Shown in pieces: positions 49,112 through 52,031 of a stretch of DNA of 60,660 nt (the stretch's first letter is position 1; each line of letters starts with the position of its first letter). Origin of the DNA: Acidobacteriota bacterium (GTDB taxonomy: Bacteria; Actinomycetota; Acidimicrobiia; Acidimicrobiales; RAAP-2); NCBI GenBank assembly GCA_028873575.1, contig JAGWHY010000006.1, forward strand, positions 1-60,660, written 5' to 3'. Under the pieces are notes generated by a model, which did not search any database, was not told the origin of the DNA, and saw only the letters and a list, made by a program, of their open reading frames with translations. Position numbers and translations under genes: made by a program.

Positions 49112-49822
49112 CTAAAGGTCGAGACGGAATCCGACGCCTCGGATGGTGTGCAGGTGAACCGGGGTCGCCGGGTCGTCTTCAATCTTCTGGCGGAGGCGCT
49201 TGACGTGGGTATCGAGGGTTCGCGAGTCCGACAGTTCGAGCCCCCACCACAGCGTGTCGAGGCAAGTTTCGCGCGTCACAACTTGGCCGAGGCGTGTGGC
49301 CAGTAGCGCCAAGAGATCAAACTCCTTGCGACTAAGTGTGATTTCACGACCACGTTTAGTGAGCGTGCGGCGCATGAGGTCGAGTCGAAGGTCGCCGAAG
49401 TTGACCACCTCATCGTCGGTCTCGGACGTCGGTCGGCGCAAGACGGCCCGAATGCGCGCGACGAGTTCACGCAGGCGAAAAGGCTTGGTGACGTAGTCAG
49501 CGGCGCCTATCTCGAGACCGAGCACGACGTCGAGCTCGCTGCTACGCGCGCTGACCATGATCACTGGCGTCGGTGACGAGGCGCGGAGTTCACGGCAGTA
49601 GTCGACGCCCGAGCCGTCGGGCAGCATCACGTCGAGCAGGACGAGGTCGGGACTTCGAGTGTTCATGAGGTGTCGGGCTTCGGCAATGTTGGTGGCACCG
49701 ATGACGTCAAAACCTTCGACGCTCAACCCGACGCTGAGCGCGTCTTGGTAACTGGCCTCGTCTTCGACGACGAGAATAACGCTTCGACGTTCGGCGACTT
49801 GACTCACGTCACGCGCGCCCAA
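49112..49822 (-). CDS. OmpR/PhoB-type response regulator, no histidine kinase nearby
   Basis: 236 aa. Receiver domain with acidic E-D-E (20–22), phosphorylation Asp64 and Lys113; winged-helix domain with S-R-K-E-F-D-L-L and the R-T-L-D-T-H-V-K-R-L-R-Q recognition part. It starts with TTG without a clear ribosome site; GTG at 49807 is an alternative. It resembles RegX3/PhoP regulators. No kinase gene is next to it, so its stimulus is unknown. Confidence 0.9.
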   Translation of the reverse strand: MGARDVSQVAERRSVILVVEDEASYQDALSVGLSVEGFDVIGATNIAEARHLMNTRSPDLVLLDVMLPDGSGVDYCRELRASSPTPVIMVSARSSELDVVLGLEIGAADYVTKPFRLRELVARIRAVLRRPTSETDDEVVNFGDLRLDLMRRTLTKRGREITLSRKEFDLLALLATRLGQVVTRETCLDTLWWGLELSDSRTLDTHVKRLRQKIEDDPATPVHLHTIRGVGFRLDL

Positions 49823-49845
49823 GCAAATCGTGGGGCGGCACGTCA

Positions 49846-49874
49846 GCGCGCTCGACGGGAGGGATCGAGCGCGC
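49846..49874. terminator. GC-rich hairpin, possible terminator
   Basis: A 10-base stem (GCGCGCTCGA and complement) with loop CGGGAGGGA, between the repeat-protein gene and the regulator gene. There is no T-run, so it may work as a weak terminator or RNA structure. Confidence 0.45.
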
Positions 49875-49966
49875 GAGTGCCACGAAGGTGAAGTTAGGGG
49901 GAGAGGGTTATCTAAAGGTGACGAGCGTGATATCGCCAGGTGTGCGCGAGATGAAACCTCGCGAGG

Positions 49967-51415
49967 TCAGGGTGCGGTAAGCGTGAAACCCTGGTAGTTG
50001 GTCGCTTGGTCGAGGTAGGAGCCAATGGCCGAACAGGTCGTCGACGTCGTGCAGACCAGCCCGTAAAGTCCACCGGCGACTCCCACGTTCGTGGCGCCCG
50101 CGGGCAAGGTCACTCGAGTCCCACGGAGCCACGTTCCGTTCGTCTGCGTGACGGTCATCGCCTGATAGTTCCCGTTGGCGTCGAGGTAGGCCGCGCCAGC
50201 GCGACACGACCCCTTGACGGGACAGGTCACCGCCACCACGCCGCCGTTTTTACCCGCCTGGGTAGCTCCCGCCGGAAGCGCGACGGATGACGCGCGCTGC
50301 CACGTGCCGTTGACTTCGTTGACGAGGAGGCCCTGATAGTCACCTCGTTGATCGCGGTACTGGCCCCCCACGGCGCAGTTGCCCGCCGAGGCGCACGACA
50401 CCTCACTAAAGCCGTAGAAGAAAATCTGGGGATTGGCCGCGGCGTCGACGGGGGCGACCAGTTCACGCCCCCGCTGCCACGTGCCGTTGACCTCGTTGAC
50501 GACGAGCCCTTCGACGGTGCCCGCCACGGTGTTGTAGACCCCGACGCTGACGCAGTTACCGGCGCTCGTGCAGGTGAGTCCCGAAAGCGCCGCGCCGGCG
50601 TAGGCACTGGCGTTACCCGGGAGTGCGAGGGCCTGCCCGTGTTGCCAGGTGCCGTTGATCTCGTTGACGACGAGCGCCTGGGTCACGTTGTCGTGATTGA
50701 CGTACGAGCCAGTGGCGACGCAGTTGCCGGCGCTCGAGCACGAGAGTTGCGTGAGCGACACGAGAGAGTTCACGTTGGCGTCACTCGGCAACGTCAGCGG
50801 CGTCGCGCGCTGCCACGTGCCACTGACTTCTCGAGCCGCGAGCGCCAAGGTGTGCGGCGCCGCCGCGCCGTCGAGGTACGTACCGACGGCGTCGCAGTTG
50901 CCGGCACTCGCGCAGGCGACGGCCCGTAGGAGAGCGTTGGACTCCGAGGCCGGCGCGTCCGAAGGCAGGGCAATGGCGACCGGCGTCGACCAATGATTCG
51001 CGCTCGACGACGCGGCGAACGGCACGACGTTGCCGGCGGCGGTTTGGTAGTTCCCGACGAGGGCGCACGAACCGGGTGCCGGGCACGACGCGCCGTACAC
51101 CGAAAGACCGGCGTTCGTCGCCGCGTTGGTGGGCGACCCGAGCACGGCGGCGCCACGCCACGCACCGTTGATTTCGCTCACGGTGACGGTGTGCACGACG
51201 CCGTTTTGGGTGAGGTACGGGCCGCTGGCCACGCAGTTACCCCCGCGGGCGCAGGCCAACGTTGAAAACTGACCTTGGTAGAAGCCGGTCCCCCCGACCG
51301 GCAACGTCACGATTTTCGCGTTCGTCCACGAGAGCGTGGCCGCGACGGCCAGACTTGAGACCAGCGCACCGACGAGTGAGAGGGGCAACAACACCCAAAG
51401 TCGTCTTTTCATCAC
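49967..51415 (-). CDS. Secreted repeat protein, likely eight-bladed propeller
   Basis: 482 aa. A signal peptide of about 26 residues (ending A-V-A-A) is followed by seven complete repeats of 55–60 residues and a C-terminal half-repeat. Each repeat has a C-x-x-x-G-x-C or C-x-S-A-G-N-C start, V-G-x-Y, a V-V-N-E-V-N-G-T-W-Q-R-G strand and an A-L-P-A/V block. The residues after the signal (T-L-S-W-T-N-A-K-I-V-T-L-P) supply the missing second half of the last repeat, so the ends may close a ring. Two cysteines per repeat suggest disulfides. Good ribosome site and −10 TATACT (51463–51458). Function unknown. Confidence 0.8.
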   Translation of the reverse strand: MMKRRLWVLLPLSLVGALVSSLAVAATLSWTNAKIVTLPVGGTGFYQGQFSTLACARGGNCVASGPYLTQNGVVHTVTVSEINGAWRGAAVLGSPTNAATNAGLSVYGASCPAPGSCALVGNYQTAAGNVVPFAASSSANHWSTPVAIALPSDAPASESNALLRAVACASAGNCDAVGTYLDGAAAPHTLALAAREVSGTWQRATPLTLPSDANVNSLVSLTQLSCSSAGNCVATGSYVNHDNVTQALVVNEINGTWQHGQALALPGNASAYAGAALSGLTCTSAGNCVSVGVYNTVAGTVEGLVVNEVNGTWQRGRELVAPVDAAANPQIFFYGFSEVSCASAGNCAVGGQYRDQRGDYQGLLVNEVNGTWQRASSVALPAGATQAGKNGGVVAVTCPVKGSCRAGAAYLDANGNYQAMTVTQTNGTWLRGTRVTLPAGATNVGVAGGLYGLVCTTSTTCSAIGSYLDQATNYQGFTLTAP

Positions 51416-51457
51416 TCTCCTGAACGCGCGAAGGCCGCGGTGATCTCTCCGAGAGTC

Positions 51458-51463
51458 AGTATA
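51458..51463 (-). promoter_or_regulatory. Candidate −10 of the repeat-protein gene
   Basis: TATACT on the minus strand, 43 bases before the start and inside the gap to the neighbour gene. The −35 is not clear. Confidence 0.4.
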
Positions 51464-51471
51464 AGAAAGCG

Positions 51472-51876
51472 TTAGCGCGAAGAGGCGTCGGCTCGGGGGG
51501 CTGGCAACTTCGCGAGTCGCGTCGGAATCATCGTGTTTTCGTTAATCCAGTAGCTCGCGCACACGCGGTGATAACCGTCGGCAATGACGAGCGGGAGTCC
51601 GCGCGTCGCGTCGCCGCGCACCAAAAGGACTGGTGAGAGTCGTCGGCCGGATTTCACTTTGTCGAGGTCGTGGCGCACGTGAACGTTGTCGCGTTCCAAG
51701 AGTTCGAGGTTGCTCGCGCGCAGGAGGTCTTTTGCCGCAAAGTACAGGGTCGTGGCGACGCGGAGCTGCGCGACAATCGTCGAGACGTCGCGGGGTCGCA
51801 ACACGAGGCTGAGGTAGTGGGCGGCGGCCGGAAAATCGTGTTCTTCCGGTTCGTCGAGCCAGTGGCTAACGTCCAC
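51472..51876 (-). CDS. Small conserved protein with ParB/sulfiredoxin-like strand
   Basis: 134 aa, GTG start. E-E-H-D-F-P-A-A, K-D-L-L-R-A-S-x-L-x-L-L-x-x-D-N-V-H-V and I-A-D-G-Y-H-R-V-C-A-S-Y are notable; the D-G-Y-H-R motif recalls ParB-N/sulfiredoxin folds with a nucleotide-binding role. A 33-residue frame with an ATG at 51964 ends inside this gene in another frame (about 51865), so an upstream start joined by a frameshift is possible. No function assigned. Confidence 0.7.
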   Translation of the reverse strand: MDVSHWLDEPEEHDFPAAAHYLSLVLRPRDVSTIVAQLRVATTLYFAAKDLLRASNLELLERDNVHVRHDLDKVKSGRRLSPVLLVRGDATRGLPLVIADGYHRVCASYWINENTMIPTRLAKLPAPRADASSR

Positions 51877-52031
51877 GCGTGGTGTCCCTTGCGTGCCGCA
51901 CGTCGAGCATCGTCGGGGTGGTGAGGCCCTCGTCGGCGAGCGCGCGTGAACGGCCAGTACTCATGGACTAACCCTAACGACGCGACGCGTGCCGCGCGAG
52001 GGCGGCGAAATTACTTTGACACAATGGAGGC

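Follow-up and report, generated by a model that had tools for sequence, protein, structure and literature searches.

An exported actinobacterial protein predicted to form an eight-bladed propeller of cysteine-paired blades

The window (the whole stretch of 60,660 nucleotides that was analysed) carries on its minus strand a gene for a protein of about 481 residues which, judged by its AlphaFold2 model, is almost certainly an eight-bladed β-propeller. The shape of the ring is known; the blade family is absent from the family libraries searched (Pfam and NCBIfam), and the lineage has reused this blade in many proteins.

Gene, repeat units and predicted ring

The open reading frame occupies exactly 49967..51415 on the minus strand and comprises 482 codons when read from GTG. 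An ATG codon directly follows the GTG and has AGGAG just upstream, so that the protein probably starts at 51412. Its N-terminus reads by eye as a Sec-type signal peptide (KRR, a hydrophobic stretch and A-V-A before ATLSW) with no visible lipobox, in keeping with the original prediction of a secreted protein; export via Sec appears highly likely on this reading. The G+C content of the gene is 0.671 (0.622 for the window). A promoter and terminator scan of positions 49800-51900 found none (shuffled sequence yields 0.1 and 1.9). The features are as follows:

49112..49822, minus strand: response regulator gene (PF00072, PF00486), syntenic neighbour
49967..51412, minus strand: propeller gene, read from the more probable ATG start (with GTG at 51415 as the alternative)
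51341..51412, minus strand: putative Sec-type signal peptide, read by eye
51272..51340, minus strand: N-terminal half-unit (SW...AKIVTLP), outer strand completing blade 8
51104..51271, minus strand: unit 1, residues 49-104
50933..51103, minus strand: unit 2, residues 105-161
50759..50932, minus strand: unit 3, residues 162-219
50591..50758, minus strand: unit 4, residues 220-275
50414..50590, minus strand: unit 5, residues 276-334
50243..50413, minus strand: unit 6, residues 335-391
50072..50242, minus strand: unit 7, residues 392-448
49970..50071, minus strand: unit 8, strands A-C only, residues 449-482

The protein contains eight C-x5-C pairs, which start at residues 55, 111, 168, 226, 282, 341, 398 and 455 (spacings of 56, 57, 58, 56, 59, 57 and 57 residues) and account for all 16 of its cysteines. 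Pairwise alignment of the units gives a mean score of 85 (range 39–141; 28 pairs, with the short eighth unit included), whereas 500 shuffled pairs average 23 and reach at most 44, so that the weakest true pair (39) falls within the shuffled range. Units 1–7 share a mean identity of 34% (21–46%). The two ends complement each other: 29 residues from residue 26 to the first cysteine and 27 from the first cysteine of the last unit to the end add up to 56, the length of one unit. Each of the eight tryptophans of the mature protein lies 25–28 residues ahead of a Cys pair, including Trp30, which is in register 25 residues ahead of the first; the last unit has no tryptophan. These observations agree with the original description of repeats of 55–60 residues, each with a Cys pair, arranged as seven full copies plus terminal halves forming an eighth that the N-terminal Trp strand completes. 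The G-T-W motif which it ascribed to every repeat is less regular, being exact in five of the seven full units and replaced by G-A-W in unit 1 and N-H-W in unit 2.

The AlphaFold2 model, computed from five sequences (the window protein and four related loci, from Acidimicrobiales and Acidimicrobiaceae metagenome-assembled genomes), has a pLDDT of 87.7 and a pTM of 0.88. It shows 24 long strands as eight groups of three together with short outer strands, in a predicted ring of radial blades closed by strands of both termini. Prediction without the alignment gave lower values (pLDDT 62.5, pTM 0.66) with the strand order nearly unchanged. The first eight VIA-align matches span the whole model (Z 27.1–24.0, 316–324 residues, 2.9–3.2 Å), the best with Z 27.1 over 324 residues. 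Their chain titles name TBLR1/TBL1XR1, Cdc4 (1nex_B, third, Z 25.9), ODA16, Rsa4 and a pre-60S particle chain. Cdc4 is an eight-bladed WD40 propeller, and we take the other chains to be eight-bladed as well. One passage of a TBL1XR1 review gives no eight-blade count for TBL1XR1 itself (PMC10859502). Below these ranks are CylK and PLL-type lectins (Z 20–23). The first rows of a Foldseek search are PLL lectins and enzymes, with poor superposition (rmsd 7.6–19.6 Å among the matches listed). The structure prediction, which had been named as a check, thus returned an eight-fold ring and not a different fold, and a circularly closed eight-bladed propeller, as first proposed, is what it depicts.

In this model a blade would consist of three long strands, A, B and C, and a short strand D, the N-terminal strand completing the blade that the C-terminal A-B-C strands begin. 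The cysteines of blade 1 (model residues 30 and 36) are on strands A (27-32) and B (35-44). The pair of each unit would face across the A-B hairpin, and disulfides in the units are very probable; eight of them would staple the inner hairpins of the ring. In the C-D turn, the tryptophan and the acidic residue at the fifth position ahead of it may act as a core clamp, as in Asp-box propellers. Two candidate helpers of disulfide formation, VKOR and Thioredoxin_4, were looked for in the draft genome that contains the window (96.55% complete) and neither was found; VKOR is present in 34 of 41 genomes of the genus.

Orthologs, paralogs and genomic neighbourhood

Orthologs were defined as matches at E below 1e-90, a definition with which the neighbourhood agrees where compared. 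They occur in 31 of 37 genomes of the genus, in one case (G022) split over two contigs, and the window's genome has a single copy. At E up to 0.001 there are matches in 38 of 61 genomes overall, and a profile of 11 proteins matches in 47 of 296 genomes of the class and 13 of 396 of the phylum, two sets that overlap. Eight Cys pairs are found in 29 of the 31 proteins from ortholog loci; L009 and L011 have nine, the extra pair lying upstream of the units. All 16 cysteines are conserved in 30/30 aligned orthologs and are also invariant in 11 orthologs and paralogs. The N-terminal tryptophan is in register in 20/31 ortholog-locus proteins, and none (0/31) has a tryptophan after the last unit.

A hand-picked sample of 20 stretches provided 21 paralogous proteins with 24 runs of Cys-paired units. 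Run lengths were 8 (11 runs), 7 (six), 14 (two), 16 (two), 6 (two, one of them cut by the end of the stretch) and 9 (one, with one spacing of 82), so that 21 of 24 are 7, 8 or a doubling. Unit counts by HMM are lower by at least one in several of these paralogs (13 instead of 14 in L044, 15 instead of 16 in L037). From their sequence, these runs would also form rings. Among eight proteins whose tails were scanned, two have fn3 domains, one He_PIG and one Big_3_5. In two proteins (L046:3-4445, minus strand; L045:1718-6001, plus strand) the Cys-paired units form two or three distinct runs of 6-7, separated by other domains that look fibronectin-like by eye. Three others (L036:617-2680, plus; L044:328-3807, minus; L054:923-3307, minus) have C-terminal tails in which GYW...DGG..FGDA repeats can be recognised by eye; these have no Pfam match at cut-off and are perhaps a second propeller.

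A mobile or viral origin was rejected. A one-protein query, sensitive to close relatives only, found no relative in viral contigs, and tblastn (E 1e-5) found none in plasmids and phages. The Foldseek search did include many viral propellers, whose 8–20% identity among the matches listed indicates likeness in fold only.

Downstream of the propeller gene and on the same strand lie the response regulator gene and then a peroxiredoxin gene (PF00578). Beyond these, on the plus strand, are genes that look by eye like components of a dehydrogenase complex, and the block is kept by synteny. The compared loci show regulator, peroxiredoxin and dehydrogenase-type genes instead of the specific envelope system that had been raised as a possible partner, nor was an uptake or surface system noticed next to the propeller gene there. 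The gap between propeller and regulator genes is long in nine loci: seven contain by eye one kind of opposite-strand gene, identified as PF03069 in the one tested (L060), while L056 retains a remnant of that kind of gene and L064 has a TnpB-type gene. Since genes intervene in several loci, the arrangement reflects synteny rather than a fixed operon, and an operon with a two-component system, also considered, is weakened.

Several of these neighbours can be described further. The intervening gene of L060 (8203-9192, minus strand) belongs to the acetamidase/formamidase family, and genes of this type are likewise recognised by eye in L002, L003, L004, L057, L058 and L059. That of L064 (8246-9811, minus strand) is of TnpB/OrfB type (PF01385, PF07282, PF12323). 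In the window, a gene adjoining that of the propeller (51472-51876, minus strand) encodes a protein of 134 residues without a Pfam match, present in 7 of 24 related loci, and besides the peroxiredoxin gene the window carries a peroxidase-family gene (PF00141; 55977-58202, minus strand).

Family libraries and the link to Asp-box propellers

With the propeller protein as query, every Pfam and NCBIfam model stays below its cut-off; Pfam, NCBIfam and PHROGs gave short weak matches at most, or none. The nearest miss was Pfam CDGP (PF24238), which scored 24.1 bits where 24.3 are required and covered 22 residues at one blade junction. It was discounted, as was DM9 (14.9 bits, cut-off 26.2), because each matches a single junction. 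The best matches of a sequence search of the PDB were tryptases, at E 0.14 or worse, and a profile search produced two matches (E 0.075 and 2.3). No WD40 model and no BNR model (PF14870 or other) is among the Pfam matches at E up to 10, a list from which the HMMER filters drop most weak matches; a search of the window's genome with PF14870 found nothing at E up to 0.001. Titles and abstract openings of the literature contain no description of the blade family, subscription journals being mostly outside the scope of this search. Thus the original statement that the repeat matches no nameable family stands as far as models at their cut-offs are concerned, and no clear match to a known family emerged, but a chain of steps through intermediates connects the blade with Asp-box propellers.

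The steps are provided by comparison of blade profiles. Those of the window family match the blades of proteins with a W-N-G-T-W motif (L090 and L092) at 98.1%, the latter match those of a Ycf48-like protein (L101) at 93.2%, and L101 matches BNR blades at 93.3%. The window family against L101 gives 46.6%, and direct comparison with BNR blades fails for both the window family (0.5%) and the W-N-G-T-W proteins (2.8%). The blades of L101 (n = 6) and of five BNR proteins (n = 22) were excised by Asp-box-like patterns and those of L090/L092 (n = 15) by W-[ND]-G patterns; because blades were cut out by motif, these matches owe something to selection, while the Pfam match of L101 does not. L101 reaches 60.4 bits with PF14870 (PSII_BNR; cut-off 27) and 53.2 bits with the NCBI Ycf48 model, far under its cut-off of 326. 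This protein (L101:541-3849, plus strand), which forms a bridge between the two propeller groups, has Cys pairs, DGGxxW motifs and TIG domains. The repeat HMM gives it 19.6 bits, a small margin over the top score (16.4) among 168 control sequences, shuffled or reversed. That the family descends directly from Asp-box blades was considered and is borne out neither by this score nor by the direct profile comparison (0.5%).

The Asp-box motif S-x-D-x-G-x-x-W and its relaxed form are absent from the propeller protein. An excerpt of PMC2716378 places the Asp-box between the third and fourth strand of a blade, and at the corresponding site, after strand C, six of the seven full units have G-x-W (unit 2 has N-H-W). 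The orthologs have a Glu five residues before this tryptophan (W-5) in the seven full units, at residues 81, 137, 196, 252, 308, 367 and 424, each kept in 20–26 of 30; the window protein has Ser at 137 and Gln at 424. In our reading, the blade family is an offshoot of Asp-box propellers stapled by cysteines, alike in fold and in this turn, and not a member by motif or by model.

Putative function and comparison with known propellers

The ring may serve outside the cell as a rigid platform to which a ligand or partner, either a glycan or a protein, binds, most likely at the side of blades 6–8. Mean conservation calculated without Cys and Trp is 0.613, 0.615 and 0.590 for units 6, 7 and 8 and 0.517–0.570 for units 1–5. 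The block of units 6–8 ranks 10th of 427 circular blocks with a margin of 0.063, for a sector picked post hoc. Y360, N390, Y417, Y451 and Y474, in loops or inner strands, are kept there, and the Tyr at offset 19 is found in 27/30, 30/30 and 30/30 orthologs in units 6, 7 and 8. The B-C and D-A loops form the top face, the functional side of the known Asp-box structures covered in an excerpt of PMC2716378. D-A loop conservation is highest before unit 5 (0.68; 0.62–0.63 before units 6–8), and B-C loop conservation is 0.61 in unit 4, 0.62 in unit 7 and 0.54 in units 6 and 8. Since the loops before unit 5 and in unit 4 are equally or more conserved, the case for units 6–8 rests mainly on strands A and B. 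We give a binding platform, rather than a spacer, an enzyme or a sensor, a probability of about 0.5, lowered from 0.55 because of this mixed loop conservation.

The positions conserved in at least 27 of 30 orthologs (only Gly, Cys, Tyr, Ala, Pro, Trp, Leu, Phe, Ser, Val, Gln and Asn) are mostly fold residues, as expected for a structural or adhesive surface element, in which the ring would serve as a stable spacer or matrix component and have no specific ligand pocket; the joining of units to fn3 and Ig-like domains in paralogs is also consistent with this. Such an element nevertheless appears less likely than a binding platform, as conservation is uneven round the ring and peaks at units 6–8, which a mere spacer would not need, even if the margin is small. 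Many Asp-box propellers are extracellular enzymes (glycosidases, lyases or sialidase-like), and the Foldseek list includes PL25 ulvan lyase, sialidases and L-rhamnose-glucuronate lyase. Some charged positions are fairly conserved, the best being D412 and E196 (26/30), followed by position 240 (Asp in 25/30, Asn in the window protein). However, no position with Asp, Glu, His, Arg or Lys is conserved in as many as 27/30 of the aligned orthologs, which speaks against catalysis without proving its absence, and the W-5 Glu recurs once per unit, a pattern expected of structural residues. A sialidase requires an Arg triad and a Glu/Tyr pair, according to an excerpt of PMC5349852. The protein is probably not an enzyme, and catalysis appears clearly less plausible than a spacer role. 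Least probable is a sensor input in which the exported ring would pass an outside signal via a kinase to the neighbouring response regulator: in 23 of 24 other loci (two genomes occur twice) this gene does share the strand of the ring gene and lie downstream of it, but opposite-strand genes separate it from the ring gene in the nine long-gap loci, the whole block is syntenic, so that the link may be positional only, and no kinase was noticed beside the propeller gene.

More tentatively than the platform itself, we can imagine that a Cys-stapled branch of the Asp-box group radiated in Acidimicrobiia and some other actinobacteria as exported 7- or 8-blade rings, single or doubled, forming a recognition repertoire, of which the window gene would be a conserved, syntenic core member with its binding side at blades 6–8. 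The blade would supply a family for exported proteins to which neither Pfam nor NCBIfam assigns one here and would suggest how disulfides can replace the Asp-box clamp. Its runs of varied length, built of one blade type, are a natural set for asking what fixes blade number. The larger picture is unchanged, since amplification of propellers from single blades is already known and is well described in the part of PMC9218822 consulted; the mean unit identity of 34% in the window ring is under the 60% mark given there for highly repetitive propellers.

Among known propellers, the Asp-box group (BNR, Ycf48/PSII_BNR, sortilin) shares with the window protein an acidic residue at W-5 before Thr-Trp in the C-D turn: the Asp of SxDxGxTW occupies this position and the window family has Glu there, while Thr-Trp agrees. 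The window protein differs in lacking SxDxGxTW and in having a Cys pair in every blade. Eight-bladed WD40 proteins have in common with it the blade number and closure by an N-terminal strand, both features described for Cdc4 in a source excerpt, and fill the first eight VIA-align ranks (Z 24–27). They show only 5–10% identity at these ranks, and the window protein, unlike them, is exported and Cys-paired. PLL/PHL lectins are likewise bacterial propellers (VIA-align Z 19.5–20.1, with PLL3 first in Foldseek). They have seven blades, compared with eight units here, and gave no match in the PDB sequence searches. PLL lectins bind sugars between their blades. Cysteines of PLL/PHL lectins join monomers, according to an excerpt of PMC6943638. 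Plasmodium CyRPA is described in part of PMC5349852 as a sialidase-type propeller without sialidase activity and with a disulfide in each of five blades; it is set apart by this description, being eukaryotic and six-bladed, with one Asp-box and a first blade without a disulfide, from the bacterial ring of eight Cys-paired units.
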